Part shown: positions 15,233 through 37,464 of the stretch, in pieces
How positions within the stretch are numbered: the first letter of the stretch is position 1
Layout of the letters: each line of letters begins with the position of its first letter
Source of the DNA: a virus
Virus record (IMG/VR): IMGVR_UViG_3300046507_000526
Location: 1 to 64,000 of that record
Strand: one strand, 5' to 3'
Length of the DNA: 64,000 nt
The notes under the pieces: generated by a model
What the model was told of the DNA's origin: nothing
The model's input: only the letters and a program-made list of their open reading frames with translations
Databases searched by the model: none
Program-made: the position numbers and the translations under genes

Positions 15233-15556
15233 TTAAGAGTTACCATTGTAAGGCGCGCCGTATAGTTTGTCAATCCGAGCAAGAATCTTATTATCTTGAT
15301 GTTGCATGTACTTATGCAAGCCCAGGAATCCACCACCTACGACAGCAGCTCCACCAACACCCAATTTAACCCTTGTCTGAAATGTTCTTCCAGCTTCTAC
15401 TTTGGCCTTCCGTCTAGCTCTACCTGAAGTAAGACCGGATTTCTCCGCCTCTTCTAAAACTGAAGCTTTGTTAGCCCATGACTTAGCAGACTTACCAGAA
15501 GCAGTGTCTAGCATTTTCAAGGTCTTGGATAGGTATTTATTAAATGCACCTGCCAT
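15233..15556 (-). CDS. Internal virion protein candidate with variant tag (AFNKYLSKTL), 107 aa
   Basis: The N-terminus MAGAFNKYLSKTLKML is a divergent form of the MNKYLEKIA tag seen on several other proteins here. A basic helical region (SGRARRKAKVEAGRTFQTRV) and a Gly-rich hydrophobic stretch (LGVGGAAVVGGGFLGL) follow, the same composition as the tagged 147-, 155- and 106-aa proteins. Preceded by a late element at 15581. Proposed head-internal or membrane-interacting protein. Confidence 0.6.
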   Translation of the reverse strand: MAGAFNKYLSKTLKMLDTASGKSAKSWANKASVLEEAEKSGLTSGRARRKAKVEAGRTFQTRVKLGVGGAAVVGGGFLGLHKYMQHQDNKILARIDKLYGAPYNGNS

Positions 15557-15580
15557 GTTGGTTTCCTTAAATTACAGAGT

Positions 15581-15588
15581 TATTTTAA
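15581..15588 (-). promoter_or_regulatory. Late-type promoter element TTAAAATA (107-aa gene)
   Basis: TTAAAATAACTC on the minus strand, 25 bases before ATG 15556. Confidence 0.5.
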
Positions 15589-15607
15589 CAGAGTAAATGG
15601 ATCTTGG

Positions 15608-15628
15608 AAATTGGTATAAGGAATATAG
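15608..15628 (+). promoter_or_regulatory. Phage promoter element 7 (GGTATAAG class)
   Basis: AAATTGGTATAAG followed by GAATATAG, 41 bases before ATG 15669. It is divergent from the late element at 15581. Confidence 0.75.
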
Positions 15629-15668
15629 AAAGACCGTGTAGCTGTATCTTTGTTATAAGGAGATATTA

Positions 15669-15941
15669 ATGAAGATTAGTGAAATGACAGAATTCGTCAG
15701 CAGAGCCCCTTGGCCTTGCGTTGTTGCTTTGGACAGACTTGGGGAGAAAGATCCGGAAATAAAACGAAGGGTCGTTGCAGTAGATCATGCACTCGTCATG
15801 GAATACAGCGAGCGGGTGATCAAGGTTTTGCTCGAAGAGCTTTTCCAGTACGTCGAGACCAAGTACCTCGTGCGTAAGCCTAAGCTGGAATCGCGGGTCG
15901 TGATGTTCATAGCGGATGCCCGCAGAAAGAAATCCGCTTAA
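15669..15941 (+). CDS. Hypothetical protein, 90 aa
   Basis: Ribosome site AAGGAG. Helical, charged sequence (ERVIKVLLEELFQYVETKYL) with a basic C-terminus (DARRKKSA). First gene of a three-gene plus-strand insertion within the virion block. No family recognised. Confidence 0.7.
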   Translation: MKISEMTEFVSRAPWPCVVALDRLGEKDPEIKRRVVAVDHALVMEYSERVIKVLLEELFQYVETKYLVRKPKLESRVVMFIADARRKKSA

Positions 15942-15969
15942 TTAATAGTCAATCTGTACGGAGGGTATT

Positions 15970-16092
15970 ATGAGCAATGACGTAACGACCAAAGAACCGA
16001 GCAGTATGGATTTCTTACTTCTTATTATTGGTTGTATTATCCTGATAGGATTGTTTGGTAAAAAAACTGAAGACGATCATGAATCACGTTGA
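15970..16092 (+). CDS. Small single-span membrane protein, 40 aa
   Basis: ATG 15970 has ACGGAGG upstream. The sequence has a soluble N-terminus, a hydrophobic helix at about 14-30 (MDFLLLIIGCIILIGLFG), then KKTEDDHESR. It overlaps the next gene by 14 bases. Confidence 0.6.
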   Translation: MSNDVTTKEPSSMDFLLLIIGCIILIGLFGKKTEDDHESR

Positions 16093-16273
16093 AAATAAAA
16101 GGATAATACAGGAGCTTGCTGATAACCCTGAACAGGTAAAAAGATTTACGCAATCTCGTAAATTCGTAAATCGTATAACAAAAGACCCCAATAGACCTCC
16201 TCCGAGCCCGATCTTAATGGGTGCGTTAGCAGCTGCAGGGATGATAATGACCCTGCTAATTGTGACGCGATAA
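16079..16273 (+). CDS. Small tail-anchored membrane protein, 64 aa
   Basis: The start ATG 16079 is preferred to a TTG-type opening at 16055. Basic, helical N-terminal domain (NPEQVKRFTQSRKFVNRITK), Pro-rich hinge, then a C-terminal hydrophobic helix (LMGALAAAGMIMTLLIVTR). Same architecture as the small membrane proteins at 48.5-50.2 kb. Confidence 0.6.
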   Translation: MNHVENKRIIQELADNPEQVKRFTQSRKFVNRITKDPNRPPPSPILMGALAAAGMIMTLLIVTR

Positions 16274-16280
16274 CCTTAAT

Positions 16281-16311
16281 AAAAAGCCCCGATTTCTCAG
16301 GGCTTTTTTTA
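16281..16311 (+). terminator. Terminator between convergent units
   Basis: AAAAGCCC..GGGCTTTT stem with T run; convergent with the end of phoH. Confidence 0.85.
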
Positions 16312-16316
16312 GTCTT

Positions 16317-17036: not shown

Positions 17037-17061
17037 AGGTATCTCTAGTTACGTGAACCCT

Positions 17062-17078
17062 GTGAATTCCGGATTCAC
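17062..17078 (-). other. Stem-loop in phoH leader
   Basis: GTGAAT and ATTCAC form a perfect 6-bp stem with a 5-base loop, 26 bases upstream of the phoH start. A possible operator or RNA hairpin. Confidence 0.35.
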
Positions 17079-17097
17079 AATTTATTGTAGCACCAAA

Positions 17098-17132: not shown

Positions 17133-17153
17133 AATCTATTCTTCCAATTTTGA

Positions 17154-18047
17154 TTAGAAGTTCAGCACAACTGCGCCGTTAACGTTACCGATACCTGCGC
17201 CAACAGCTTCGTAGGCGTGGAATTCGATAATGTCAGCTTCAGTCTTCAGGAAGACCGTCGGAGCTTGAAGTTCATAGAACTGACCAAGGTAGTTCTGCGG
17301 TGCAAACACAAGTGCTTGGTTCGTCGGCAGAATGTTTGCCTTGTTCGTCGTGATGATCTTGTAACCGAAGAACGTATCCAGCGAACCTTCACCACGGAAC
17401 AGGTCCGAAGCAGCAGGCGAACCGATATCCGTTGCAGCGAAAGTCAGCAGATCAGCATACATCGATTGCGTCATCAGGATACAACCAACAGGCAGCTTGT
17501 TCAGCAGCATGAACTTGATACCAGCCATCAGGTTAGCCTTTGTAAAGCCACCAGCGATAGTGTGGACATTGCTGTTTGCCGTAGCAATCGAAACAATGTT
17601 GTTGTAGAAGTTCACGTCTTCTTGCTCTTGAATATCCTTAACGCTGTTTTCCTGAAGGATCGTGCGAATGTCGGTACGGTACGTAGCGAGTTCGAACTTG
17701 CTCTTGCGGAAATCTTGCGATTGAATCTTCTGGAAGGTCACCGGATAACGCGAAGTCTTCCAGTAACGAATTTCCGGACGGCCCAGGAACGGAGCAGTAG
17801 CTGCAACCGAGTCAGGTTCCTTTTCAACGATAACCGTCGGTTCTTCCGTCAGTTGGCGGTCGAGTTCCGAAGCAGTGATCTGAACAGGAGTCAGGATCTT
17901 ACGGGTAAATCCGTCTTCACGAAGCTTCTGACGTACGAAAGCTGACATAGCATTCGAAGCTTCTTTGGTATGACCTTGGTCAATCTTATCGAGGAAAGAT
18001 TGATTCAGGAATTGTACGTTTACAGTTTCTGTGGAATATGCGCTCAT
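17154..18047 (-). CDS. Major capsid protein (HK97-like), 297 aa
   Basis: Layout of a phage capsid subunit: N-terminal helical arm with a Glu-rich segment, then RYPVTFQKIQSQDFRKSKFE near 100, a spine-helix-like stretch (DIRTILQENSVKDIQEQEDV near 127-146), NLMAGIKFMLLNKLPVGCIL near 170-190, and FFGYKIITTNKANILPTNQA near 222. Codon use favours highly expressed genes. It sits downstream of a decoration-like gene and ahead of a strong terminator. The N-terminus contains HTKEAS near 26-31, similar to the proposed processing motif. Confidence 0.85.
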   Translation of the reverse strand: MSAYSTETVNVQFLNQSFLDKIDQGHTKEASNAMSAFVRQKLREDGFTRKILTPVQITASELDRQLTEEPTVIVEKEPDSVAATAPFLGRPEIRYWKTSRYPVTFQKIQSQDFRKSKFELATYRTDIRTILQENSVKDIQEQEDVNFYNNIVSIATANSNVHTIAGGFTKANLMAGIKFMLLNKLPVGCILMTQSMYADLLTFAATDIGSPAASDLFRGEGSLDTFFGYKIITTNKANILPTNQALVFAPQNYLGQFYELQAPTVFLKTEADIIEFHAYEAVGAGIGNVNGAVVLNF

Positions 18048-18621: not shown

Positions 18622-19218
18622 TTAACTCAGCATAAACTCAAGCAGAGGATCGGTTTTAGGACGTGCTACTCCTACGCCATTACCCATGCCCCACGGTTCT
18701 TCAATAGCAGACGCCATTTTAGTTAGAAGTTCCGGAGAAACGCGTTGGAGTTCTTCCAGATCTTCCTGCGTGAATTGAGCGGCAGAAGCAATCTTGGTAA
18801 TCTGTTCGGGCATATGCGCGACAGCATCAATATGATCGAGCTGTGATTGATGATCTGAAGCCTGCTTTTCGATATTCAGCTTAAGACCTTCGATTTGAGC
18901 TTCAAGAGCTTCTACATACTCAGCTGCTTTTTGAAGAAGTTCAACCGTGGGGTTAGCTTCGATTTGAACCTTAAAACTATTCAGTTCAGCAAGGTTAAGA
19001 TTTGCAGCCTTAACCATTTTTACAGCGTCTTCGTGATCCACGCCTTTCATAGCGAGAACGGAAGCTGCTTCTTTTTCCATTACATGCTGAGCAACTTGAA
19101 GATACGCATCTTCTTCAGTGAAACCCGCTTGTTTAAGATGTTCTACGGCAACTGCCTCAGGCGTCGAAAGACGAACGGTTTCAGCATGTTGTCTAAGAAT
19201 TGATGATAGATTACTCAT
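18622..19218 (-). CDS. Scaffold/internal head protein candidate with repeat motif, 198 aa
   Basis: Almost wholly helical, with a long coiled coil (residues ~85-125). It contains two copies of the helical motif shared with the frameshift protein: AGFTEEDAYLQVAQHVMEKE and KGVDHEDAVKMVKAANLNL. It carries many hydrophobic-x-Lys-x-Ala sequences (MEKEA, LQKAA, IEKQA, LTKMA) that may be protease sites. Position between protease and capsid genes fits a scaffold. Confidence 0.6.
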   Translation of the reverse strand: MSNLSSILRQHAETVRLSTPEAVAVEHLKQAGFTEEDAYLQVAQHVMEKEAASVLAMKGVDHEDAVKMVKAANLNLAELNSFKVQIEANPTVELLQKAAEYVEALEAQIEGLKLNIEKQASDHQSQLDHIDAVAHMPEQITKIASAAQFTQEDLEELQRVSPELLTKMASAIEEPWGMGNGVGVARPKTDPLLEFMLS

Positions 19219-19678
19219 TGTCTTTTCTCTTTTTTTCCATTACGCCTTTGGCGTGATTGTGTCTAACGTGATCCAGGATACTAGCGCCAGGAGTTGCGCC
19301 TATTACGCCACCCGCCAGAGTTCCAGCAGGTCTTAGGATAGCGTGCGTTTTTAAGCCCTTTTTAAGTGAGTCAGTAACATCGTAGGATCCTTCCCCGATT
19401 TTGCCAACACCCTTGATGACATTTTTATTAAGTGCACGTCTTGAAAGTACCTGGGCCAATTTCTTGCCACCAGCCATACCTCCGACTACACCTACTGCAG
19501 CGCCTATCGTACTCACTACATTCCCACCGGCTACTTTAGCTGCATTCTTAAAAGAAGAAATTCCAGCATCTCGGTACTCTTGCGTGTATGTATGCTTCTC
19601 TTCTTTGCTCAGAGATTTATGGTACCCAATACTCGGGAAAAGCGCAGCGGCTTTTTCAAGATACTTGTTTGTCGACAT
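19211..19678 (-). CDS. Tagged internal head protein candidate (MSTNKYLEKAA), 155 aa
   Basis: The N-terminal tag is followed by a charged helix, then a long Gly/Ala/Val-rich region (GGNVVSTIGAAVGVVGGMAG) and a second Gly-rich segment (AGTLAGGVIGATPGASI). These could insert in a membrane on injection. Overlaps the 198-aa gene by 8 bases. No catalytic motif. It may be packaged in the head like T4 internal proteins. Confidence 0.65.
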   Translation of the reverse strand: MSTNKYLEKAAALFPSIGYHKSLSKEEKHTYTQEYRDAGISSFKNAAKVAGGNVVSTIGAAVGVVGGMAGGKKLAQVLSRRALNKNVIKGVGKIGEGSYDVTDSLKKGLKTHAILRPAGTLAGGVIGATPGASILDHVRHNHAKGVMEKKRKDNE

Positions 19679-20099
19679 GTTTACTTATCATTTTGTTAAT
19701 CTTAACGCCAGCATAATCCGCAGCAAGACTTGTAGCACCGGTTAGAGCTAGAAGTTTTGCATTGTGCATTCTTCCGCCAGTACCGATAAGTTTGGGGGTT
19801 AGCTTGTTAACAGCGAAGCCTGTACCCGCACCAAGTGTACCGATAACTCCAGTATCTATAGCGTCATGCTTCCAATTAGGATTTCGTTCCTGAAACGTTG
19901 AAGCCACTTTGTGTAAAGCTCTATTGAACAATGTCTTTGCTCCTTCAGATAGTTTAGCACCTGGAGAAACAACATGTTCAGGCTTTGCAACTTGGCCGAG
20001 ATGTGTGCCCTTGTCGATCTCCATACCGGCTACTTTAATTCTACCGTGTTCATCGAGATCAATATCAAGGTTTGCAATTTTTTCGAGATATTTATTCAT
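19656..20099 (-). CDS. Tagged internal head protein candidate (MNKYLEKIA), 147 aa
   Basis: ATG 20099 gives MNKYLEKIANLDIDLDEHGR; a TTG two codons upstream (20105) is an alternative start. A second half Gly/Ala-rich with hydrophobic stretches (TGVIGTLGAGTGFAVNKLT, LLALTGATSLAADYAGVKI). Contains ALHKVAS, a variant of the Lys-x-Ala motif. It overlaps the 155-aa gene by 23 bases. Function not recognised. Confidence 0.65.
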   Translation of the reverse strand: MNKYLEKIANLDIDLDEHGRIKVAGMEIDKGTHLGQVAKPEHVVSPGAKLSEGAKTLFNRALHKVASTFQERNPNWKHDAIDTGVIGTLGAGTGFAVNKLTPKLIGTGGRMHNAKLLALTGATSLAADYAGVKINKMISKHVDKQVS

Positions 20100-20170: not shown

Positions 20171-21852
20171 TTAGTCTTTCTTTTCGCCGTGATGTTTCAT
20201 AGCGGAATAAGCTTTGCCGCCGTAGAAACCACCTGCAACTTCGCCACCGATAGCAGCGGCCACAGCAGCGCCTGAGCTAAATTTGCGACCTAGTGCATAA
20301 CCTAGTGCTGTCCCAGCCGAACCTCCAAGACCACCGCCTAGGATTGTACCGCCAACTTTGTCGCCTTTCTTGGAGCCCATGTACCCGGCTACCAAACCAG
20401 CAACAGCAGCTTTTTCGATTTCAGCAGCTTTTTCGATTTCAGCAGCTTTCTTTTCAACCATTTCAACGGCTGAATCAAAATCAAGGCCATTTTCGACTAG
20501 CATGTCAACTGCGGCTTTCTTTTCACGGTCTTTGTCTTTTTTAGACATTGCGGCAGCAGCGACACCAGCACCCACTGCAGCAGCACCAGCACCGATAGCT
20601 GCCTTAGCACCCATCCCCATGCCTTTCTTTGCAACAGCTACAGCCCGTGAAGGAAGTGCTTTAGGACCAAATGCTACTTTTTCCAACTCAGATGCTTTCT
20701 TTTCAACCATTTGCACAGCTGAATCAAAGTCCACGCCTGATTCGATCAGGAGACCAACTGCGGCTTGCTTCTCTTGATCATTATTCTTTACAGCGGCGGT
20801 CACACCAGCACCAATCGCAGTTGCACCAAGTGCAGTAGCAGCGACGCGTGCTTTGTTAAGCTTCCGACCTTCGCCGAGAGCGTTTTTAACGCCCCCGCCC
20901 GTACCCGGAATACGTGTAACCTTCTGAGCTAACGACGTGCCTGGAACTTTACCTACTAGTTGCAGGACACCCGCTTCTTTCGTTAGCCCAGCTTTTTTAC
21001 CAAGTTTACTGCAGTTTCGAAGTCGAAACCAGCTTCCATGAAGTGGTTAAGAGCAGCTTGCTTGATTTGAGCATCTTCTTCACGTTGAATTTCTTCCGCA
21101 GCAGCCTTTACCAGGTTAACTGCATCTTCGAAATCATGACCTTGCTCGACCAGTGCTGAAACAGCAGCAGCCTTTTCTTGAGCATCGCCAGCAACGGTAA
21201 ATGCACCAGTAGCGACTTGGTTAGGAGTCTGTGCAGCAACTTGTGCGCCTTCTTCCTTAGCAACGCCAGGCGTAGGATTTTGATCAACAGGAGCTGCGCC
21301 ACGAGCCATTGCGTCAGCAACGATTGCGTCGAAAATCTGGTTAATAGAACCACCATTACCACGACCATCCGTACCCGGTTGGTTTTGGATAATGCGATCT
21401 TGTTCTGCTACTTGAGCAGCCAGGTCTACCTGGGTCTTAGTCGGCGTTGCGCTAGCAATACCGTTAGTAGTATTCATGTCACCAACTGAAGCCAGCTTCT
21501 CAAGAAGAGCTTCGGCCAGTGCCTTACCTGCGTCAGCAGCTTGTTTGTTCATAGTATCCTCTGTTGTTACTTGATCAAGTTTAATGGATGCAACCTTTTG
21601 CATTACTTCTTTAGCTAACTCTGCACCCTTAGCCGCAGCTTCTTTGGTACGTTCGTCAGCATCGTTTTCCTTTTTGGCGTCTTTGACATCTTTCTCAGTC
21701 TTTTCTACATCTTTCTTGACTTCCTTGACGTCCTTATCGGCCTTTTCTTCATCTTTCTTCTCATCTTTCTCTGTCTCTTCGCTGGCGGACTTATTAAGAC
21801 CGGCGCTCTTTTCAAGATCCTGGATGAGATCATCAAGACTTAGATTCATCAT
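20171..21852 (-). CDS. -1 frameshift fusion protein, about 560 aa, internal head/scaffold candidate
   Basis: Two ORFs joined by a predicted -1 ribosomal frameshift at A_AAA_AAG (20998-20992). Before the slip: residues 1-287 of the 289-aa ORF. After it the -1 frame reads AGLTKEAGVLQLVGKVPG and continues open to the stop at 20171, adding about 273 residues. The distal frame has no usable start before GTG 20803. Yet its extension (ARVAATALGATAIGAGV) is clearly homologous to a later segment (AKAAIGAGAAAVGAGVAAAA), so it is coding. Repeats GVDFDSAVQMVEKKA and GLDFDSAVEMVEKKA occur in the distal part. A GTG 20803-started 210-aa product is the alternative. Confidence 0.7.
20983..21852 (-). CDS. Zero-frame product of the frameshift gene, scaffold-like, 289 aa
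   Basis: Starts MMNLSLDDLIQDLEKSAGLN. Residues ~25-75 are an extreme Lys/Glu/Asp coiled-coil stretch (KKDEEKADKDVKEVKKDVEK). Then a low-complexity middle and two C-terminal repeats, QGHDFEDAVNLVKAAAEEI and AGFDFETAVNLVKKLG, ending just past the slippery site. Composition is that of a phage scaffold or prohead core protein. Several Lys-x-Ala motifs (LEKSA, MQKVA, LEKLA, IKQAA) may be protease sites. Confidence 0.75.
   Translation of the reverse strand: MMNLSLDDLIQDLEKSAGLNKSASEETEKDEKKDEEKADKDVKEVKKDVEKTEKDVKDAKKENDADERTKEAAAKGAELAKEVMQKVASIKLDQVTTEDTMNKQAADAGKALAEALLEKLASVGDMNTTNGIASATPTKTQVDLAAQVAEQDRIIQNQPGTDGRGNGGSINQIFDAIVADAMARGAAPVDQNPTPGVAKEEGAQVAAQTPNQVATGAFTVAGDAQEKAAAVSALVEQGHDFEDAVNLVKAAAEEIQREEDAQIKQAALNHFMEAGFDFETAVNLVKKLG
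20992..20998 (-). other. Programmed -1 frameshift slippery heptamer A_AAA_AAG
   Basis: On the minus strand the zero frame is GTA AAA AAG CTG GGC TAA. The heptamer A AAA AAG is the efficient bacterial -1 slip site (as in E. coli dnaX). The zero-frame stop follows two codons later. Slippage enters the long open -1 frame. No strong downstream stem was identified by eye. Confidence 0.75.
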
Positions 21853-21904: not shown

Positions 21905-23422
21905 TCAGTCAATCTTTTTGTTCTGAATCAACTTTAACATTGCCGATTTGGCTAATCTGTAAGTCAATTTGTAGTCAGAAGCAGATTTAACTAAAGGTAT
22001 TTTAACACCAACTGAAACCCTATTCAATTCTTGATCTTTCATTTTTTTCTCAATTACTTGAGTGATATACCATTTAGCAGCCAGAGCAGCACCACCGATG
22101 GCAACAATTGTATTTAGGATCTTTAGAAGTTGAGGTGTTTTATCAGCTGATTCAGTGAGATTCTGCTCACGGAATTTTTCATATACTGTAGACTCGATGT
22201 GTGGGCCGTTACCGCTATAGCCTACGTTTGTGCCTTGTACAAAGCCATACGCTGAAGCCTGTTTATTAAATGCTACACGCTCCTCTACGTATTCCGGGAA
22301 ATACGAAGCATCTTGCATGTGGGGAAGCAGAGCATAAGCGATACCAAGATTAGGTTCTGTAATTTCGCCGAAATCTTTATCGAAATCCATTAACCCGTCG
22401 ATTCCAACTTTGTTGATATAAGCAGCTGTAAGAGGACCTATACCACGAGCATCACTGCCTAGTATTTTCCTACCAATCAGTTCAGCGAGAAAACCCAATG
22501 AAGGGCTAATGCCAAGATGACCCAAGGTACTAAGAATCTCGTTAAGCTTATAGTTCTTAATAACGTCGATAACGTCACCTTGCGGATCCGAAACTCGTGA
22601 TACAAGATTATCAAAATTAGAATCGATAGATACAACATCACCGTCAACCTCTTTAAGCAATTCCGATAGCTTTTTAAGAGCAGCGGATTTGTTCATTGTT
22701 ATCTCTTCGAGGCCAGCCGCCAATGCTTCATCAACAGAGCTAATAGCAGGTTGAGCAGAAGCTACTTTTTGTAGAACTGCGCTTGTAACATCGGCAGGGC
22801 GGAATACGATAGAAATATCGAAGAACTTAAGTGGCGCAAGATTTAGCGCCATAACCTTACGACCGTCTGGATAGACACGGCCAAGTTGTTCGCTAAGATG
22901 CTCGCAATATTGTTCACGGGTCTTAGCTTTGTTGCCACAAATACTGCAAACGTCAAAAGGCGTGCGGCATGCCATAGAAGTTTTGGGCCAATCTCCGCTA
23001 CCAATACGTTCTGCAATATCAGGAGCCTTATCGTTCCAAAGTTCAGCGATAAGTTCAACGCGATGCATACGTTCATTGTAAACAGAGAACACAACTCTAC
23101 CGATAGCGATGGCAGGATCTTTGTTTACGTGATTGCGGAAAATATGAGCAGGAGATGTTTCGAACGTCTTGTGATAATCGATCAGCGTAGATTCTGGAAA
23201 ATAATCAGCGTTGCGATTGGCACCATAGAACTCACCAGCTCCCATGGCCAGGATGTGAAGATACGTTTTACCATCTACGGGTGTAATTTTAGAGGCGAAC
23301 TCCTGTACTCTAGAGTCCGTGGCTTGTTTAACAAGACTGCCTGTAAGATCCCTATTGTCAAGTACAGTAACATGAGGTTCGTCTTGATAAAAAGAAGAGG
23401 TGTCGATTAATTTCGTTAGCAT
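21905..23422 (-). CDS. Prohead (head maturation) protease with C-terminal extension, 505 aa
   Basis: N-terminal ~200 residues match the herpes/phage prohead serine protease fold: MGAGEFYGANRNADYFPES near 57-75, catalytic His in HIFRNHVNKDPAIAIGRV near 92-110, VELIAELWN near 122, and Ser in DWPKTSMACRT near 143-153. A Cys cluster (CSICGNKAKTREQYCEH) right after it looks like a zinc-binding insert. The ~300-residue C-terminal part is helical with many hydrophobic-x-Lys-x-Ala motifs and may be a scaffold domain removed on maturation. Likely processes scaffold, capsid and tagged proteins. Confidence 0.8.
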   Translation of the reverse strand: MLTKLIDTSSFYQDEPHVTVLDNRDLTGSLVKQATDSRVQEFASKITPVDGKTYLHILAMGAGEFYGANRNADYFPESTLIDYHKTFETSPAHIFRNHVNKDPAIAIGRVVFSVYNERMHRVELIAELWNDKAPDIAERIGSGDWPKTSMACRTPFDVCSICGNKAKTREQYCEHLSEQLGRVYPDGRKVMALNLAPLKFFDISIVFRPADVTSAVLQKVASAQPAISSVDEALAAGLEEITMNKSAALKKLSELLKEVDGDVVSIDSNFDNLVSRVSDPQGDVIDVIKNYKLNEILSTLGHLGISPSLGFLAELIGRKILGSDARGIGPLTAAYINKVGIDGLMDFDKDFGEITEPNLGIAYALLPHMQDASYFPEYVEERVAFNKQASAYGFVQGTNVGYSGNGPHIESTVYEKFREQNLTESADKTPQLLKILNTIVAIGGAALAAKWYITQVIEKKMKDQELNRVSVGVKIPLVKSASDYKLTYRLAKSAMLKLIQNKKID

Positions 23423-23449: not shown

Positions 23450-23770
23450 TTAGTTGGACTCTGGATTGTCTTGATGGAGACGAAGGTTAACCGTTACCTT
23501 AGGTTTCTTCTTAAGAGACTCTGAAATAACTTTCAATTGGTTAAGAGATTGAGCTTCCAGTTCCGCCATATGTCGGCCTCGCTGTTTACTCTCTGTACTA
23601 TTTTTAAAATTAGCAACGCCCAGTCCTAGACCAGATGCAGACATTGCTAATCCAATTTTCGAAGTGGTAGAACTACGTTTCCACCCTCTAGCGAAATCCT
23701 TACCAACCGCCTTAATGCCTTCTTTAACAGCCGACATTGAAGCAATCTTTTCAAGGTATTTATTTTCCAT
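23450..23770 (-). CDS. Tagged internal head protein candidate (MENKYLEKIA), 106 aa
   Basis: Tag MENKYLEKIASMSAVKEG, then a basic stretch (KDFARGWKRSSTTSKIG), a short Ala/Gly-rich hydrophobic segment and a charged C-terminus. Lies in the operon between the tagged ADP-ribosyltransferase and the prohead protease. No known domain. Confidence 0.65.
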   Translation of the reverse strand: MENKYLEKIASMSAVKEGIKAVGKDFARGWKRSSTTSKIGLAMSASGLGLGVANFKNSTESKQRGRHMAELEAQSLNQLKVISESLKKKPKVTVNLRLHQDNPESN

Positions 23771-23772
23771 AA

Positions 23773-24555
23773 TTACTTCTTAAGTTGTTTGCTTGAATAA
23801 TACGCACCAGCTCCAGCAAGAGCGGTTCCCAGGATAGATTTACCCAGGCCTTTTGCGAATCTCCCAGGCTTGGCTTTAATAAAGCTTTTAATTTCGCCAA
23901 GGGAGTTTTTTGCATAAGCATCAGAACCCTTCATATACTTGTTAGATACTGAGCCTTTATTCGTAAATACCGACTTTTCAAGGGTATCGTATATTTTCTT
24001 CTTTTGCAATTTTTTGGCAAAAGGTGGAGTGAAAGGGTCTCCCTTCATATCCTTGAAAATCTTTTTAACTTCTGGATTACGTACTTTTTTAAACTCATCA
24101 GATTTCCACGTAGGTGCATTGACATGAACTACTCCTTTAGAACTTTTAGTTCCGGGAATCATATCTTTGAACCTACTCATGGCATCGTGTATTTTGAAAG
24201 TGCCTTCGTGAATTCTTTGGGCCTGATTTGCGTACGTATGAGCTTGATGTTTAGACTTTGTCATAAACACATGCTCTTTTGACTTCAACGCATCTTCACC
24301 ATGAACTTCTTCTGCGACGTCAATAATACCTTTAGAAGCTCGTGGTTTAAGCCCTTCTTTGAGAATCTTCTTTTTATGTTCTACTGCAGTTCCGTGATAA
24401 AGAGTTTCACGCCCAGTAAGATGGCCACGATCATATTGATCCTTGGCCATGCCGACGCCTGCTACGACTGCAGCACCACCAGCTATCGTCTTATTGGTTT
24501 TGTTCTCATCTTTACCCCGGGAAGACTCTGCGACTTTCTCAAGGTATTTGTTCAT
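23773..24555 (-). CDS. Tagged putative ADP-ribosyltransferase, 260 aa
   Basis: Tag MNKYLEKVAESS. The region ~50-110 has the ART/KptA-type signature: ETLYHGTAVEHKKKILKEGL (motif with YHGT at 53-56), followed by HVFMTKSKHQAHTYANQAQ near 95-113, equivalent to the second conserved strand and helix of the fold. The remainder is very basic, and the C-terminus is Gly/Ala-rich (ILGTALAGAGAYYSS). T4 packages the ART Alt in its head and injects it to modify host RNA polymerase; this gene could play the same role. The third catalytic residue is not certain. Target unknown. Confidence 0.65.
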   Translation of the reverse strand: MNKYLEKVAESSRGKDENKTNKTIAGGAAVVAGVGMAKDQYDRGHLTGRETLYHGTAVEHKKKILKEGLKPRASKGIIDVAEEVHGEDALKSKEHVFMTKSKHQAHTYANQAQRIHEGTFKIHDAMSRFKDMIPGTKSSKGVVHVNAPTWKSDEFKKVRNPEVKKIFKDMKGDPFTPPFAKKLQKKKIYDTLEKSVFTNKGSVSNKYMKGSDAYAKNSLGEIKSFIKAKPGRFAKGLGKSILGTALAGAGAYYSSKQLKK

Positions 24556-24558: not shown

Positions 24559-25107
24559 TTAAACCAGTGACTTAGGATTCATCGCACCGTTTTCACGATA
24601 ACGACCTTGAAGATCCGTTAGGCTTTTGATAGTCATAAGATCAATACCATCGCCAAGAACAGCGTTAGTAAGGACAGATTGTAGCAGGTTCGGGTCGACA
24701 GCGACCATAGGTGCAAATCGATAAATAGTATCTGCGTACTTCAGGACTTTCTTGTTATCATGTTCACGAAGAACGTGGGAATTAGCAATAGCTTGGTGCA
24801 ATGCTTTTAGGAAACGCTGATAACGGAATTGATCTACTACCGTGCGGTATCCACCGATAAGAGCATTGACTGCCATATTTGACACGAATCCTGCAGACGA
24901 CTTACCAGCTTCTGTAGCCATACCTTTCAGATAGTCACCAGTAATATCTTGCTGATGAGGTCCAGCTGCTTCTTTTTGTAGCTGTTCGACTTCTTGTGCT
25001 TCTTTTTCAATCATCACATGAGCGATAAACCCGGCAACGAATTGGTCGGCAAGTTCTTCATTCCCGGCAAATTTCTCAAGACCGAGTTCTTTAATTTTTT
25101 CTAGCAT
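24559..25107 (-). CDS. Virion/head protein candidate, 182 aa
   Basis: Ribosome site AAAGGA. N-terminus MLEKIKELGLEKFAGNEE contains LEKFAG, reminiscent of the tag, followed by IEKEAQ and LQKEAAG. The rest is helical (YRTVVDQFRYQRFLKALHQA, then VDPNLLQSVLTNAVLGDGI). Not recognised; located in the scaffold/protease operon. Confidence 0.6.
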   Translation of the reverse strand: MLEKIKELGLEKFAGNEELADQFVAGFIAHVMIEKEAQEVEQLQKEAAGPHQQDITGDYLKGMATEAGKSSAGFVSNMAVNALIGGYRTVVDQFRYQRFLKALHQAIANSHVLREHDNKKVLKYADTIYRFAPMVAVDPNLLQSVLTNAVLGDGIDLMTIKSLTDLQGRYRENGAMNPKSLV

Positions 25108-25134: not shown

Positions 25135-26238
25135 TTAATCACGTTGAAGAGCTGTCCACGCGTCATTGCTTCTTCCCGTAGTTGAATCCGTACCTGGGTC
25201 ATACAGGGCAGCGTCAATAGCAGGGCCAGTAGCAAGTCCGATAGCACCCTTAAGTACTGAACCGGAAGTTTTACCGACAGCCTTCACAATAGCCTTGGGT
25301 TTACCGACTCCCCCGCTCATAAGGTTATTGACGTTTGATTTTACGCTATTAGAAGCTGCTCTGCCTACTGCTGCAACACCTTTAAAAGGCATAGCCGCAG
25401 CAGCTCCTACTGCCCTGCCTGCGACATAGCCAGGATTACCAAGATTCTTGGCAAATTGTCCTGACTTCTTACTGATATTTTTCATCGCATCTGAGAAGTT
25501 ATTCTGATTAATTCCCTGTGCGGTAGCAGCGGCTTGTTTCTGAAGTTCTGAACGCTGACGCTGTTCACGAACTAGTTCCCGGGCTTGCTTATACAAATCT
25601 GCAAATCCTTTAACTTCGCTTAGCTGAGCTTCTTTAAAAAGACCTACACTTGCGATATCACGATACTTTTGTACGGAGCCTGAAACTAGAATAGAGAGTT
25701 CTTTGAACTCCTGTTCCGTTGTAACACAGGCCAGTTTATCCATCCATTTCTCATCACTGTTGATTGCCTTAGCTGTTTTCACAAGCCTCTCAGCGACGTT
25801 CATGCTTTCAATCTGGATACGTTCAAGTGCCTCTTTATTAGCAGCTGCAGATTTTATGAAGTAAGCCAGCTTTTCGCCGTGCTCAAGTTCACGATTTTCA
25901 TAAGCAGAAGCTTGTTTTTCCATTGCGTCTTTTTGTTCAACGCTAATAGCTGCAGCAGATTTTTCTTGGAAGTTATCAGGCACTGTAGCTGCGGTCATGA
26001 CTTCCGCGTATTTAGCAAGCGGAAATTCGATAGTGCGATCTTCTTTACTCAGTTGTAGAACTTTAAGGTATGCGATATTGTTCGTTGATTCCACAGCACG
26101 CTTAACCTGTTCACTATTCAATTCGTAGGCGGCAGCTTGCTTTGCAAGACCCGCGCTAAGGGGAACGTTGTTGTTCAGGAAGTCTTCGACTGCCTTTACT
26201 GAGATATCTCTAATTTCTTCTGGGCTGATATTAGCCAT
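25135..26238 (-). CDS. Scaffold-like protein rich in processing motifs, 367 aa
   Basis: Helical protein in which the hydrophobic-x-Lys-x-Ala pattern occurs about nine times, roughly every 20-30 residues (LAKQAAAYE, LAKYAEV, MEKQASAYE, FIKSAAANK, LVKTAKA, MDKLACV, LFKEAQL, LYKQARE, LQKQAAATA). The C-terminal ~100 residues are Gly/Ala/Pro-rich. Such regular spacing would fit a core/scaffold protein cut into peptides during maturation. Late element at 26264. Confidence 0.6.
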   Translation of the reverse strand: MANISPEEIRDISVKAVEDFLNNNVPLSAGLAKQAAAYELNSEQVKRAVESTNNIAYLKVLQLSKEDRTIEFPLAKYAEVMTAATVPDNFQEKSAAAISVEQKDAMEKQASAYENRELEHGEKLAYFIKSAAANKEALERIQIESMNVAERLVKTAKAINSDEKWMDKLACVTTEQEFKELSILVSGSVQKYRDIASVGLFKEAQLSEVKGFADLYKQARELVREQRQRSELQKQAAATAQGINQNNFSDAMKNISKKSGQFAKNLGNPGYVAGRAVGAAAAMPFKGVAAVGRAASNSVKSNVNNLMSGGVGKPKAIVKAVGKTSGSVLKGAIGLATGPAIDAALYDPGTDSTTGRSNDAWTALQRD

Positions 26239-26386
26239 TGTGTCCTCGTTTTGACGATGTTCCTATTTTAGCATTGAGCGCTATAAAGGGCTTGCTTTTG
26301 GGGTGACGAATCGATTTTTGACCAGTCCTCATACGAAGTTGGCCTTGTTTCTTTTTAGCCGCGATTTTCTCTAGATATTTATTCAT
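26231..26386 (-). CDS. Tagged small basic protein (MNKYLEKIAA), 51 aa
   Basis: Reads MNKYLEKIAAKKKQGQLRMR then TGQKSIRHPKSKPFIALNAK and IGTSSKRGHNG. The tag makes the ORF credible despite its size. About a third of the remainder is Lys or Arg, as in DNA-condensing internal head proteins. Its stop overlaps the start of the 367-aa gene by 8 bases. GGAAG lies upstream at a somewhat long spacing. Confidence 0.7.
   Translation of the reverse strand: MNKYLEKIAAKKKQGQLRMRTGQKSIRHPKSKPFIALNAKIGTSSKRGHNG
26264..26271 (-). promoter_or_regulatory. Late-type promoter element CTAAAATA (367-aa gene)
   Basis: CTAAAATAGGAAC on the minus strand, 26 bases before ATG 26238. It lies inside the 51-aa tagged ORF. 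Confidence 0.5.
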
Positions 26387-29223: not shown

Positions 29224-30003
29224 TTAACATCCGGGTGGATGCTGATTATCACCAGAAGCAACGGTAATCGTCCCCGTGCCAGTACTAGACCCATTTGCAA
29301 CAGCCACACCCCCGCCTGAGCTATTTGCCTGATTGTAGGCAGCTCCGTAGTAAATACTTGCTACGTACGCCGAAGTAGAACTTCCGTTTCCTCGATCCGT
29401 AGCCGCTAATCCAATATAAGCCTGGAAAGTTGCTTCCATTCTGCTGTTATACGTGAATTGACCTATTGTGAATTTACTACCCGATTGTTTCACTGCTTTA
29501 TATTTGGATTCTAAAACTACGAGCCCTGCAAGCAGTTGATTTGATACAGTAGATGAGCCATTAAATTTAGCAGAAAGGCTCTCTCCTGGATTTACACAAA
29601 GTATAGACACAAGATCAGGTCTTGCAGTCTCGATCAGGCACTTACCTGTTTTCTGAGAAGCGCCTTTCACCTGGTTCCAACCCATAGTCTGTAGAAGACC
29701 CCAAGCTCGAAGGCCCTGATCTACGTTGACAGATTGCTGATTAATACCTCTTCCAACTATATTCTGTACAGCGCTAGAATTGTAATAATCCCTGGCACCT
29801 GACGAGTTTATAACGCTCAAAGCAGGGCCTTGAGCATTTACATTGAAATGGCTCTCGTATTGAATCTGAGCCATAACCAACTTTACAATATCGTTCTCTT
29901 TGCCAAGAGTATTGGGAAAATACTGATCAAGTAACTGTCTGATCGTTGTAGCACAAATCTGTTTAATAGAGGTATCTACGACGGTTCCTGTAACAGCACC
30001 CAT
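29224..30003 (-). CDS. Virion lytic transglycosylase (SLT-like), 259 aa
   Basis: Peptidoglycan-cleaving domain of lysozyme-like fold: IVKLVMAQIQYESHFNVNAQ near 40-60 with catalytic Glu in the ES pair, RAWGLLQTMGWNQVKG near 98-113 (the Gly-Leu-x-Gln motif), and FTYNSRMEATFQAYIGLA near 178-195. The Gly/Ser/Thr-rich tail ends in HPPGC. No signal peptide, so it probably acts as a tail-borne lysozyme that opens the cell wall during DNA entry. Its start overlaps the beta' C-part stop (TAATG). Confidence 0.75.
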   Translation of the reverse strand: MGAVTGTVVDTSIKQICATTIRQLLDQYFPNTLGKENDIVKLVMAQIQYESHFNVNAQGPALSVINSSGARDYYNSSAVQNIVGRGINQQSVNVDQGLRAWGLLQTMGWNQVKGASQKTGKCLIETARPDLVSILCVNPGESLSAKFNGSSTVSNQLLAGLVVLESKYKAVKQSGSKFTIGQFTYNSRMEATFQAYIGLAATDRGNGSSTSAYVASIYYGAAYNQANSSGGGVAVANGSSTGTGTITVASGDNQHPPGC

Positions 30004-31829
30004 TAGTACTTACCTCCCTCTCCTTCACCGAATTCATTGCCGATAATATACGAAGTAATGGGATCAGTACTGTGAATATGTGATTCAGATCCTACAGCTG
30101 CACTTTCACGTAAGGTGTTTTTAAGACCTGAGAATGAAAGCTTAGATACCCAGTTATCATCGAGTAATTTAGCTGTCTTAAGACCAGGCACAATCGGAAC
30201 TACTCGAAGTCCAGTCGGAGCCACAGGCACCTTGGTTACCCCCTTTTCACGCAATTCCTGAATATGATTACCGTCAAGAAGTGTTCCCGGCGTAAGCTCA
30301 TAAACGCCTTTTGCTAAAAGTTTACCTTCAGCCTGGTCAAGAGGAACTTCTCCATGAGTGTCAGCAAAATACTTGCGCACTGTATTCACATCAATCTTTT
30401 GGCCAGGTAGGAAACCAGTTTCAGCAGGATCAATTACTTCAACGTGCTTGACCAGGTTCTTGGCAATCATTTCGAAATGGCGAGGATCAAGGCCTCCGCC
30501 GTATATTCCACGAAGCTCATGGGCCATGTACAGCCGACCTGCACCCAGACCTTTCAGTCCAACCAGTTTTCGAGGATTTACAACACCGGTAGAAAGGGCA
30601 TCGCCTTTGAGAATCTTTTCGCCAACAGCAACTTTAAGATTCTGATTGTTAGGCACGAAGTGTGCCTGCTCGTTTACGAACACATTATGGTCACCAAGAG
30701 GGGTTTGCTTAATTGCGGAAACCACGCCATTGATATTCGAGATCGTTGCTTCGTCTTTGAAGTTTTCCGAAGGATTACGCAGAAGATTCGAGGCTTGATC
30801 GTAAGAGTTACCCTTACGAGCACCAACAGAAGCTTTGTGCTTCGTAGAAAGCATGGACTGCGTCAAAACTTCAGATACAGATTGAGCAGCGATAACACCA
30901 ACGTTTTCACCAATCTCAGCAGGTTTACCATTTCCCATTAATCCATAGCATTTCTTGCAAACACCATCATGTGCTTCGCATGTCAATACACTACGCACCT
31001 TCATGTCTTTATGGCCTGAATTTACAAGTTCTTTGTAATAGTGCTCATCGATTAAGGTGTTCGTACCAACTTCGTAGCGGCCAATAGCTCCCTTTTTGTC
31101 GGCGATTGGCAAAGTTATACCGTTTGTCGTCCCGCAATCGTCAATAGTAATTACTTCATGGAATACGGTAGGGGAAAGTTCCTTAAACAGAGCGCCTGGA
31201 AGAGCTGTAGACAACTGAGATAGAACGGTAGATCCACGACCCATATACGACATTGCGATAACCTCTGCAGGAGTCATACCTTGAGCAAAAGAATGCTTAA
31301 TAACGAAAGGAACAAGTTCCCCTTTAAGGTTGATCGACATAAGAGGGGTCGATGTACCAGTAGCAAGCTGCGTGGGATTACCACGCGCACCAGTACGAGC
31401 CATCTTTGCAGCAGTCGAGCCTTTGCTCAAAAGATAGTCAAGGTTTTGTTTTTCGATCTTACCGTTGTATTCGCCAGTTAGATTTCCCAGCGCATCATTC
31501 TCTTCTTTCTTTGAAAATTTCTTTGCAAAGATTTGATCAACCTTTGTTTGAAATTCATCGATGATAGCCTGACGTTCGTCAGATTCATTTATGTAATCGC
31601 TGAGCGGAGTAGTAGCACCAATCTCGGTTGCCTTGTTGAAGAACTTCTTACCGAGATCATTAATCGTTTCATGGCTATTAGGCCCGCCGTGCTTAAGAAG
31701 TACATTGACCAAGTCGCTGATAGCGCCTTTATCAAGAGGCCTGTACAGATCGAAGTTGTCCTTCGCTTCTTGAGTGGGAAGTTCTGATTTGAGCCTAATG
31801 GCTCCAGGCGTGGTATATTTTTCAGTCAT
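30003..31829 (-). CDS. RNA polymerase beta' subunit, C-terminal part, 608 aa
   Basis: Matches bacterial beta' from the secondary-channel region onward: MARTGARGNPTQLATGTSTP near 143, LSQLSTALPGALFKEL near 210, TIDDCGTTNGI near 228, zinc-site Cys in CEAHDGVCKKCYG near 278, and VGVIAAQSVSEVLTQSMLS near 303 (trigger-loop approach). The catalytic Asp triad is on the separate beta' N-part gene at 38439, some 6.6 kb away. Splitting of beta' is known in phiKZ-type and AR9-type phage polymerases. Late element at 31855. Confidence 0.9.
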   Translation of the reverse strand: MTEKYTTPGAIRLKSELPTQEAKDNFDLYRPLDKGAISDLVNVLLKHGGPNSHETINDLGKKFFNKATEIGATTPLSDYINESDERQAIIDEFQTKVDQIFAKKFSKKEENDALGNLTGEYNGKIEKQNLDYLLSKGSTAAKMARTGARGNPTQLATGTSTPLMSINLKGELVPFVIKHSFAQGMTPAEVIAMSYMGRGSTVLSQLSTALPGALFKELSPTVFHEVITIDDCGTTNGITLPIADKKGAIGRYEVGTNTLIDEHYYKELVNSGHKDMKVRSVLTCEAHDGVCKKCYGLMGNGKPAEIGENVGVIAAQSVSEVLTQSMLSTKHKASVGARKGNSYDQASNLLRNPSENFKDEATISNINGVVSAIKQTPLGDHNVFVNEQAHFVPNNQNLKVAVGEKILKGDALSTGVVNPRKLVGLKGLGAGRLYMAHELRGIYGGGLDPRHFEMIAKNLVKHVEVIDPAETGFLPGQKIDVNTVRKYFADTHGEVPLDQAEGKLLAKGVYELTPGTLLDGNHIQELREKGVTKVPVAPTGLRVVPIVPGLKTAKLLDDNWVSKLSFSGLKNTLRESAAVGSESHIHSTDPITSYIIGNEFGEGEGGKY

Positions 31830-34148: not shown

Positions 34149-34174
34149 AGCTTTTCAAAGGCGTCCGACAATAA

Positions 34175-34642
34175 ATGCTACAACCTAACGATGAATTCCT
34201 TTTTACCCGTCAACGTCACGAAGCTGATGTAATGGGCCTGCATTACGATCTGAGACTCGTTCATGGAGACAAAGCGTATTCTTTTGCAACTCTCAAGGAT
34301 ATGCCTAAACCTGGTGAAATCATTGCCGTCTATGAGCAGCCTGTACATGATCGTGCATACGCACTTAGCAAGAAGGTTGTCATTCCTAAAGGTCAGTACG
34401 GCGCAGGGACTACGTATCTGGATTGGGTTCGTAAAGCAGTTGTAGCCCCGCATAGCACAGAAACTAGTCTGGTTATATTCACGAAGGATGGTGAGAAGTT
34501 TCTTCTGAAGAAATCTCCGACCAAAGAAAATGAAAAGTCCTGGATTTTTAGAAACATCACAGGCATGGGGAAGAGTCAGAATCCTTATTTGAAGAAAGTA
34601 GAGGAAATGCAGAAAAAAGCGATGCAGGCATTTTATGAATAA
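34175..34642 (+). CDS. LigD-type 3'-phosphoesterase (PE) domain protein, 155 aa
   Basis: Matches the PE domain that trims 3' ends in bacterial NHEJ ligase LigD. FLFTRQRHEADVMGLHYDLR near 8-27 gives the His and the HYDLRL core. YSFATLKDMPKPGE and VHDRAY near 60 correspond to the metal-site strand. VVIPKGQYGAGTTYLDW near 70-86 is the IPxGxYGxGT signature. A Lys pair (LLKKSPTKENEKSW) follows. Stand-alone, with no ligase or polymerase domain. The C-terminus has MQKKAMQ, a Lys-x-Ala motif. Its last 8 bases overlap the tagged helicase, forming a repair operon. Confidence 0.85.
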   Translation: MLQPNDEFLFTRQRHEADVMGLHYDLRLVHGDKAYSFATLKDMPKPGEIIAVYEQPVHDRAYALSKKVVIPKGQYGAGTTYLDWVRKAVVAPHSTETSLVIFTKDGEKFLLKKSPTKENEKSWIFRNITGMGKSQNPYLKKVEEMQKKAMQAFYE

Positions 34643-36095
34643 GTACCTTGAAAAAATTGCCAAGAAGCAGCCTAAGGAAGATCTTCAACCGCATCAAAAC
34701 GATGCCTTGGATCATCTCGACAAAGAGAAAGGCGTTGTCCTTCATCACAGCCTTGGCAGTGGCAAGACAAAGACGTTCCTTAAGGCTGTACAACGCTATC
34801 AGGAAGAGAACCCGAAGAAACGGGCTCTTGTTATTGCCCCAGCGAGCCTCGTTACTAACGTCGATAAAGAACTTCAGAAACATCACATCACGATTGATAA
34901 AAATCGACTGGATGTAATGTCTTATGAAAAGGCTGTAAATGAAGCCCATCACCTTCGAAAGAATCACTACGCAATCGCAGTTGCGGATGAAGCCCACCGT
35001 CTCCGCAATACAAATACCAAACGTGTAAAAGAGCTTCGTGACATTATCAGCGGGGCTGACCATAGACTTCTCGCTACTGCTACTGGTAATTACAATAAGC
35101 TTTCTGATATTTCGGCACTGGTTAACATAGCGGCTAACGATAATGTTCTTCCCGAAGATTCCAAGAAAATGGAAGACAAGTACACGAAGGACGAAACGAT
35201 TAAGCCTAGCTTCAAAAATAGATTGCTCGGTGCTAAACCTGAAGTAGTAAAAACCCTTGACCGTAAAAAAGAACTTCGAGACATTCTTCAACAATATGTG
35301 AGCTTTTACGATAGCAAGGATGATCCGAAGGCTAGAGACCATTTCCCCGAAAAGCATGAGAAATTTGTAGATGTTGAGATGTCTCCAGAGCAGCTCCGTT
35401 ACTACAAATATGCTGAAGGTAAAATTCCATTCTTGCTTAGAATGAAGATCCGTCACAATATGCCGCTCGATAAAAAAGAGAAGTCGAATCTCAATGCTTT
35501 CTCAACCGGTGTTAGACAGGTTTCTAACGGTCACAGGCATCTCGTTGCTGACGGTAAGGCCGAGTACTCACCAAAGATACAGAAGGCCGTGGCGAGCCTC
35601 CAGGATGGCTTAAAACTGGATAAGAACTTCAAGGCTCTAGTGTATTCCAATTACTTGGATGCGGGCCTTAAAGATTACTCCCGCAAACTTAACGAGCTTA
35701 AGATTCCACACGCTTTATACGATGGATCATTGTCTCGCAAAGAGAAAGACGATCTTGTAAAAGCATACAACTCTGGGAAGACAAAGGTTCTTCTTATTTC
35801 TTCAGCGGGTTCAGAAGGTCTGGATAGTAAAGGCACTAAGAGAGTGCAGGTTCTTGAGCCTCACTTTAATAAAGCCAAGGTTGACCAGGTAGTTGGACGT
35901 GCCGTACGTTTTGGAAGTCATGACCATCTGCCGAAAGAAGAGCGTAAAGTAGAAGTAGAGCATTTCCGTAGCGTGCATCCAAAACCGTTGTGGGGCAAAG
36001 CTCCGTATAGTATCGACAGGTATCTTTCGGAGAATTCGGATACGAAGCAGGATCTGTTTGAAGAAGTCAAAGGACTGATGAAGAAAGATGATTAA
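34635..36095 (+). CDS. Tagged SNF2-family helicase/translocase, 486 aa
   Basis: Begins with the tag MNKYLEKIAKKQP. SF2/SNF2 motifs follow: Q-like region LQPHQNDALDHL near 17-28, Walker A HHSLGSGKTKTF near 37-48, VIAPASLVTNV near 72, Walker B-type VADEAHRLRN near 115-124, ATATGN motif III near 140, and C-terminal ISSAGSEGLDSKG near 385 and VVGRAVRFGS near 420 (motif VI). The tag suggests packaging in the head and injection. It lies between the PE-domain gene and the HhH-ligase gene, both of which it overlaps by 8 bases. Confidence 0.85.
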   Translation: MNKYLEKIAKKQPKEDLQPHQNDALDHLDKEKGVVLHHSLGSGKTKTFLKAVQRYQEENPKKRALVIAPASLVTNVDKELQKHHITIDKNRLDVMSYEKAVNEAHHLRKNHYAIAVADEAHRLRNTNTKRVKELRDIISGADHRLLATATGNYNKLSDISALVNIAANDNVLPEDSKKMEDKYTKDETIKPSFKNRLLGAKPEVVKTLDRKKELRDILQQYVSFYDSKDDPKARDHFPEKHEKFVDVEMSPEQLRYYKYAEGKIPFLLRMKIRHNMPLDKKEKSNLNAFSTGVRQVSNGHRHLVADGKAEYSPKIQKAVASLQDGLKLDKNFKALVYSNYLDAGLKDYSRKLNELKIPHALYDGSLSRKEKDDLVKAYNSGKTKVLLISSAGSEGLDSKGTKRVQVLEPHFNKAKVDQVVGRAVRFGSHDHLPKEERKVEVEHFRSVHPKPLWGKAPYSIDRYLSENSDTKQDLFEEVKGLMKKDD

Positions 36096-37464
36096 TAAAT
36101 ACCTTGAAAAGATCGCAGTACAGCTTAAAGAACCTGCCAGCCCAGAAGGGTTAGGATTTGACCTGTCCAAAGGTGATGAAAAAGAGCTATATAAATGGCT
36201 TACAGCTGTTACTCTTTTTTCAAGGCCTATTCAACGCTCGGTAGCTACGATGGCTGCAAAGCATATGGCTGATAAAGGTTTCCATTCTCCAGAAGCTGTA
36301 GAATCTGCAGGATGGGAGACTCTTAGAGATAATCTCGTACAAGGTCATTATGCTCGGTTCGATGAGTCAACTGCTACGACTATGCTCGCCCAGGCTAAGC
36401 ATTTGAAAGAGAAGTATGGAACTCTCGGCAACATGATCGCCAGTCGAACCCCTGAAGAAATTCGTGCCGAGATTCAGACATTCAGAGGTATCGGTCCCCT
36501 CGGCAGTCAGTTATTTCTCAATGGCGTAGTCCCTCATCTCGATGTATACAAAAATAAATACCTTCAAAAAGCGGCTTTCATCGAAGACTACGTTAGACAT
36601 AAATATGTAGAGAAAGACTGGACTCAGCTCGAACACCCCGTTGCATCAAAGAAATGGGATGGCGCTCACTTTGTCGCTGATATTATGCCGGATGGTAAAA
36701 TCCGTTTCTTTTCCCGTAGACCAAGTGTAAGAGGTGGCTATCCGGAACGTACAGATCAGTTACCTCATATTACTTCAAAGCTAATTCCCGAGTATGCAGG
36801 TAATAGATTTGCCGTTGAACTTGTCCATACTGGAAAGGAAAAAACAGAGAAGGAATCTCACCCTACTGTTTCAGGTATCCTCAATTCAAAAACGGAACGT
36901 TCAATTGCTACTCAAGAAGAGAAAGGCCCAGTTAGGGCAGTTCTTATTGACGTTAAAAAACCGGAACTGCCGACATATAAAGATAAGATTGAGTATCTCC
37001 AAGGCTTTGAAAAAGACTTTGGAAATAGCAATGTATTGTTCGCACCTCATCTTGAGCATGGCGTTGAGAACATCAATAAGTATCTTGACAAGATTAAATC
37101 ACTAGGTGGAGAAGGCCTGATCGTTGCGGATTATGAAAGTCCTGAAAATGAGTCTGTACGATATAAGGTCAAGAACTTCAACACTTATAATCTCAAGGTT
37201 GTTGGATTCCAGCAGGAAATCGACATACATGGCAATCCGAAAGATAGCATGGGTGCACTATTGTTAGAAGATGCTACTGGAAGAATGGTTGGAAAGGTTG
37301 GAACTGGGTTTGACCGTGCTACCAGAATAGATGCATGGAAGAATCCAGAGAAATGGAGAAACAGATTAATTCAGATAAGAGCGTATCCACCTAGCGTACC
37401 TGGAGGCCAAGTAAGATTTCCTATCTATAATGGCTATGCAGATGGTGAAATAGACACGGTTTAA
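36088..37464 (+). CDS. Tagged HhH-ATP-dependent DNA ligase fusion, 458 aa
   Basis: Tag MINKYLEKIAVQL. Residues ~30-150 are helical with FRGIGPLGSQLFLNGVVPHL near 132-151, a helix-hairpin-helix as in HhH-GPD glycosylases. An internal tag-like NKYLQKAA follows at about 156-163. The ligase domain has motif I KKWDG at 188-192 (adenylated Lys), FAVELVHTG (motif III-like), GGEGLIVADY (motif IV) and YKVKNFNTYNLKVVG (motif V), plus an OB-like C-terminus. It could seal ends of injected DNA. The HhH part lacks a confirmed glycosylase active site. Confidence 0.85.
   Translation: MINKYLEKIAVQLKEPASPEGLGFDLSKGDEKELYKWLTAVTLFSRPIQRSVATMAAKHMADKGFHSPEAVESAGWETLRDNLVQGHYARFDESTATTMLAQAKHLKEKYGTLGNMIASRTPEEIRAEIQTFRGIGPLGSQLFLNGVVPHLDVYKNKYLQKAAFIEDYVRHKYVEKDWTQLEHPVASKKWDGAHFVADIMPDGKIRFFSRRPSVRGGYPERTDQLPHITSKLIPEYAGNRFAVELVHTGKEKTEKESHPTVSGILNSKTERSIATQEEKGPVRAVLIDVKKPELPTYKDKIEYLQGFEKDFGNSNVLFAPHLEHGVENINKYLDKIKSLGGEGLIVADYESPENESVRYKVKNFNTYNLKVVGFQQEIDIHGNPKDSMGALLLEDATGRMVGKVGTGFDRATRIDAWKNPEKWRNRLIQIRAYPPSVPGGQVRFPIYNGYADGEIDTV

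Follow-up and report, generated by a model that had tools for sequence, protein, structure and literature searches.

Why should a helicase, a DNA ligase and several small basic proteins of one virus, otherwise unrelated, all begin with nearly the same short peptide? The question is raised by a stretch of 64,000 bases (hereafter, the window), which covers bases 1-64000 of the 134,192-base IMG/VR virus record IMGVR_UViG_3300046507_000526, and where a peptide close to MNKYLEKIA (the tag) opens seven proteins. An original prediction, made from the letters of the window, took this tag as a signal that sends proteins into the prohead for delivery with the DNA, and supposed that it defines a whole injected proteome. 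Our analysis of the window and its relatives indicates that the tag is probably a capsid-targeting propeptide, removed by the prohead protease, which serves for head packaging and injection and resembles in function the capsid-targeting sequence (CTS) of phage T4. The strongest evidence, overlooked in the original prediction, is that the second half of the tag, LEK(I/V)A followed by S, A or G, matches a motif crowded into the predicted head-assembly proteins.

A short N-terminal tag in the window and its relatives

A six-frame search, with starts confirmed on the translations, recovered the seven tagged open reading frames (ORFs) at exactly the coordinates originally given. On the minus strand, MSTNKYLEKAA (19646-19678) starts a protein of 155 amino acids (aa; gene 19211-19678), MNKYLEKIA (20073-20099) a 147-aa protein (gene 19656-20099), MENKYLEKIA (23741-23770) a 106-aa protein (gene 23450-23770), MNKYLEKVA (24529-24555) a 260-aa protein (gene 23773-24555) and a further MNKYLEKIA (26360-26386) a 51-aa basic protein (gene 26231-26386). 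On the plus strand, MNKYLEKIA (34635-34661) starts an SNF2-type helicase (gene 34635-36095), and MINKYLEKIA (36088-36117) a protein with HhH-like and ATP-dependent DNA ligase domains (gene 36088-37464). A degenerate copy, MAGAFNKYLSKTL, forms the N-terminus of a 107-aa protein (gene 15233-15556, minus strand), and this divergent copy, also proposed at the outset, is genuine, because the homologue in the relative L060 begins with the full tag MNKYLEKIAS. Two more copies had escaped notice: NKYLQKAA (36553-36576, plus strand), between the N-terminal domain and the ligase domain of the ligase protein, and the variant NPYLKKVEEMQKKA (34580-34621, plus strand), which is followed by the last six residues of a LigD 3′-phosphoesterase-like protein (gene 34175-34642).

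Searches with the capsid protein matched Salmonella phage Arash, three Vibrio phages and some 30 IMG/VR loci. Since gene calling simply took the longest ORF, the counts given here are approximate. A strict pattern, which fixes N, Y, L/I, K and A/S and leaves the E and I positions free, found 76 tags in ten related genomes (that of the window included), with 4 to 10 per genome. With further contigs, the genome-wide search that had been suggested for this phage and its relatives reached 166 tagged proteins, whose bodies form 59 sequence clusters; downstream of the tag they are indeed unrelated, as had been claimed, and paralogy of the tagged proteins is ruled out.

The pattern read backwards had no match in the window genome and 18 related records, while the forward pattern, searched for in 84,980 species genomes of bacteria and archaea, matched once, within an acetyltransferase-like protein. 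These controls rule out a chance origin of the tag, and the position of the sole match, inside an unrelated protein, disposes of a host or prophage origin. An N-terminal motif search that did not take the tag as input ranked it top in the window genome and in two of three relatives (in the third, a different repeated N-terminus came first), with one or two matches in its internal controls. The tag was not found in Arash or in Vibrio phage D69, no cultured phage bearing it was found, the string NKYLEKIA did not appear in the literature searched, and a search for virion data on Arash found none.

The tag as a conserved peptide

The 76 strict tags are written in 73 different DNA spellings. Because nearly every tag has a codon spelling of its own, selection acts on the peptide, and a copied DNA element is ruled out by the same diversity. 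The positions that the strict pattern leaves free are still conserved (E in 61 and I in 62 of the 76 tags), and conservation, 3.0 bits at the final A, is down to 0.5 bits one residue further on, where S, A, E or G mostly follow. This drop, together with the preference for S, A or G, suggests that the cut bond would lie right after the A. The untagged SNF2 helicase of Arash starts directly past the tag position, and the untagged ligases of several relatives just past the position of the internal tag.

A motif shared with the head-assembly proteins

The head-cluster set comprises the protease, scaffold-like and capsid proteins and five others. In this set the motif [hydrophobic]xKxA occurs 458 times, against 75.8 +/- 8.2 in shuffled sequences, and the reversed motif is barely enriched (96 versus 74 expected). 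Versions with RxA or ExA in place of KxA show little or no enrichment, the hydrophobic-x-ExA control in the head proteins showing none. Per 1000 residues, the motif reaches 15.7 in the head-cluster proteins and 1.7 in other proteins, and the logo around KxA in the former reads (L/M)(E/V)K-x-A-(S/A/G), which is the second half of the tag. When all genes were ranked by motif content, blind to gene labels, the leading places in each genome went mostly to the same head-cluster orthologues, and Arash, D69 and distant relatives show the enrichment too.

Within the window, all on the minus strand, the motif is found six times (about 1 expected) in an acidic scaffold/core-like protein (20983-21852), which has no PHROG or Pfam match, and ten times (1.3 expected) in another core-like protein of the head cluster (25135-26238). 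Other head-cluster proteins carry six copies (18622-19218; 0.56 expected), four copies (24559-25107; 0.45 expected) and five copies (20171-20803; 1.3 expected). Outside the head cluster, an unannotated protein of about 295 aa that starts with MLAYTLKEIL and holds 8-11 KxA motifs (L100, G004:69365-70252) has orthologues in other genomes and in Arash (174466-175335), and is likely another core-type protein.

The prohead protease and the capsid protein

The gene at 21905-23422 (minus strand) matches a head maturation protease PHROG, and its AlphaFold model is confident at residues 37-222, the catalytic domain. Foldseek relates this model to T4 gp21 (5jbl; probability 0.99, template-modelling (TM) score 0.54 by target, E 0.03) and to the protease of human cytomegalovirus (HCMV; 2wpo), E being only 0.02-0.03 for these two. 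It also resembles phage G gp19 and annotated prohead proteases, and many viral prohead proteases match it at E<1e-3. The modelled domain appears to adopt the gp21/herpesvirus-type prohead protease fold, and its putative catalytic residues, S149 and H98, are invariant in 19 homologues. A solved-structure search with the protease profile gave nothing useful.

The [hydrophobic]xKxA motif stands on both sides of the protease domain in 19/19 homologues, down to 26% identity; per 1000 residues, the flanks hold 30 and 15 copies and the domain itself 2.8, near background. The six sites of the window protease are all confined to segments that are modelled with low confidence or border the domain: LVKQA (residues 30-34; 23321-23335, minus strand) marks the N-terminal border of the domain, and LQKVA (residues 217-221; 22760-22774, minus strand) the C-terminal one, with K219 and A221 invariant in the 19 homologues. 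This layout is what would be expected of a self-trimming enzyme; the proteases of SPN3US and phiKZ do trim their own C-termini (PMC5694885).

The major capsid protein (17154-18047, minus strand) has a candidate propeptide site, HTKEA followed by S, at residues 26-30 (17958-17972), and nearly all aligned homologues show K-x-A/G/S, mostly with A, at about residue 28-30; the site predicted for the Arash capsid protein is LVKEA followed by GAAM. Compared with solved structures, this protein gave only a weak match, to the gp27 capsid protein (6wkk, E 0.03).

Tagged proteins and their neighbours

The bodies of the tagged proteins are rich in Gly and Ala, and 92% of them are net positive, compared with 36% of other genes (p ~1e-23). 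Their genes gather around the protease gene, with 68 of 76 less than 20 kb away, versus 513 of 2163 genes overall (24%). Recognised among them are the SNF2 helicase, the ATP-dependent ligase and the LigD phosphoesterase-like protein; a search of solved structures with the HhH-like domain found no match. The 260-aa protein has a weak, sub-threshold match to PARP/KptA, of ADP-ribosyltransferase type, and an uninformative AlphaFold model (predicted local distance difference test, pLDDT, 36). In a relative, a tagged protein (G010 L167:6805-8523) shows a weak EncFtn-like (encapsulated ferritin) domain preceding an SNF2 helicase. The RNA polymerase genes of the window, with beta′ in two separate genes plus the beta subunit (30003-31829, 38439-39605, 42721-46098), are untagged.

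Internal tags at fusion junctions

Tags inside proteins number 22, against 2 for reversed-pattern controls, and a few of the 22 lie in unrelated proteins, probably by chance. They mostly sit at junctions of domains that are encoded elsewhere as separate genes. Fusions of the LigD-like protein with the SNF2 helicase carry an internal tag in two genomes (G004 and G007), the second of which also has an internally tagged fusion of the 106-aa protein with the ADP-ribosyltransferase-like one. In a tagged 633-aa fusion (G009 L163:11403-13304), an internal tag is accompanied by a HELGH zinc-protease-like motif and by a DnaJ J-domain match that is weak (E 3e-4) and stays below the Pfam cut-off. Where the LigD-like protein of the window has NPYLKKVEEMQKKA, those of relatives have a full tag, either at the very end of the protein or with additional domains fused to it.

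A putative capsid-targeting propeptide and its rivals

How would such a peptide work? In the mechanism that we propose, M-N-K-Y, its first part, would let the protein dock on the scaffold or core during prohead assembly, and its second part, L-E-K-I/V-A, would be the recognition site of a gp21-like prohead protease of the phage, which would cut right behind the A during head maturation. The mature cargo would then sit with the packaged DNA and enter the host alongside it. This cargo would include the SNF2 helicase, the ligase, LigD-like repair enzymes, the probable ADP-ribosyltransferase and many small basic proteins, and the internal tags of fused cargo would be cut in the prohead to release separate mature enzymes. 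Cleavage at the tag is well supported by the sequences, from which we also infer docking on the scaffold, packaging and injection.

Several points weigh against this mechanism. Both cleavage and the presence of tagged proteins in virions are predicted from sequence; the repeated LEKxA may rather form a helix for binding to capsid or scaffold; the LigD-like protein has its tag internally or C-terminally; some members show degenerate cut sites (KTL, KIS); and the probable ADP-ribosyltransferase, whose model is uninformative, owes its name to sub-threshold matches. Moreover, Arash and Vibrio phage D69 have the same motif-rich head cluster with no tag, so that the tag is dispensable for head assembly as such. 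The idea of capsid targeting has withstood the sequence tests that were run on it (the protease-site motif, the prohead protease fold, the junction sites, the basic cargo and the clustering near head genes). Its extension to a whole injected proteome overreaches, given the untagged RNA polymerase subunits and other candidate virion proteins, the position of the tag in the LigD-like protein, and the protease sites that Arash and D69 possess without it.

Could the tagged proteins rather bind scaffold or capsid through a helix that is never cut, and stay in the head as structural parts, not injected? The many motif repeats in scaffold-like proteins would suit a docking helix too, and many tagged proteins are small and Gly/Ala-rich. 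We nevertheless consider this unlikely, since the motif flanks the catalytic domain of the protease in all 19 homologues, in disordered segments, internal tags mark domain junctions, the choice of S, A or G after the A is common to tags and head proteins, and a helicase or a ligase would make an improbable part of a shell. Less likely still is that the tag directs proteins elsewhere, to the host membrane or a replication compartment, its likeness to the head motif being coincidental or secondary. Some tagged DNA enzymes could act in replication and some Gly/Ala-rich proteins could contact membranes, but the peptide is charged and has no hydrophobic core, tagged genes cluster close to the protease gene, the latter half of the tag agrees in detail with the head-cluster motif, and the different N-terminal tag of a second lineage (see below) has the same ending. 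Finally, the shared start as a duplicated 5′ gene fragment or expression element, functionless in the protein, is hardly credible: neighbouring tagged genes often overlap, recombine or fuse, as such duplication would have it, but the near saturation of synonymous sites among so many spellings, with the peptide kept, and the copies inside and near the ends of proteins all speak against it.

A second tag in a distant lineage

In a distant lineage (G012, L030, L034 and L035), NKYLEKIA was not found. Eight ORF starts of G012 (L215-L221), against none for the reversed pattern, carry instead a second tag, F(F/L)x(G/A)FxDE(L/M)xKx(A/G), sometimes in tandem, which is also present at several starts in the other three. 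Its first half differs from that of NKYLEKIA and its KxA half is the same, which supports the division of the tag into a docking half and a cleavage half. It seems rather likely, with less confidence than for capsid targeting itself, that these phages use a modular address code, wherein a lineage-specific docking half and a common hydrophobic-x-K-x-A cut half are put on whatever is injected, and inside fused polyproteins, distant relatives having swapped the docking half for F-x-x-G/A-F-x-D-E-L/M.

Other repeated N-termini were seen. Three or four protein starts in G014 (L204-L207) show a possible third tag form, N-x-Y-F-x-(Q/K)-G-(F/L). The adjacent gp104 and gp105 of Mycobacterium phage Ghost (Bxz1 species; L226:107-3287), near a protease and capsid cluster, have in common the N-terminal TAREQFEMLxPW-(x)REA, with only two copies in the stretches read, and neighbouring genes at G008:103766-106372 share the N-terminus KPFNLE(A/E)A, unrelated to the tag.

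Comparison with known systems

The closest parallel is the T4 CTS, borne by IPI-IPIII and Alt. Both are short N-terminal peptides common to otherwise unrelated, basic proteins, both end in the motif of the phage's own prohead protease (for the tag, as deduced from sequence), and this protease has the gp21 fold in both cases; T4 Alt is an ADP-ribosyltransferase, and the tagged cargo likely includes one. The N-terminus of T4 IPIII is MKTYQEFIAE, wherein M1, Y4, E6, I8 and A9 coincide with the tag. In T4, gp21 cuts the CTS, a propeptide of 10 residues, from basic internal proteins, and mutagenesis of IPIII assigned residues 4 and 7 to targeting and residues 8 and 10 to processing, a split that the docking and cleavage halves proposed here parallel (PMC9026906). 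The T4 cut motif is [L/I]xE, whereas that deduced for the tag is [L/M]xKxA, and the sequences of the capsid and core proteins of these phages show no recognisable likeness to those of T4. As far as the tests go, the tag is not the T4 CTS by descent, with its different cleavage code and unrecognisable core proteins. Unlike the T4 CTS, it is spread over about 60 sequence clusters in one phage group, it has large enzymes as cargo, and it occurs internally at fusion junctions and at C-termini.

The N-terminal residues of P1 DarB target this large protein to the head for its injection, a role like that proposed for the tag; P1 Dar proteins have no common consensus, whereas that of the tag is nearly invariant (PMC9024508). 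In phiKZ and SPN3US, a gp245-type prohead protease recognises a three-residue motif, at which it matures itself, the capsid protein and ejection proteins, and SPN3US gp53 and gp54 have identical 15-residue N-termini (PMC5694885). That motif is (S/A)xE, the propeptides are mostly long (>100 residues), and no single short tag is carried by unrelated cargo.

Implications

The proteins that phages inject are normally learned one virion at a time. If our reading is true, the tag and the protease motif list about 166 candidate injected proteins of uncultured phages, among them helicase, DNA-repair, probable ADP-ribosyltransferase, zinc-protease-like and J-domain-like proteins, and, should the address code hold, the tag would predict injected proteins directly from sequence. 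It could also be used to fill a phage head with proteins of choice, as has been done with T4. These phages would then practise a T4-style targeting with a different cleavage code, a different range of cargo and a gene-fusion strategy of their own.

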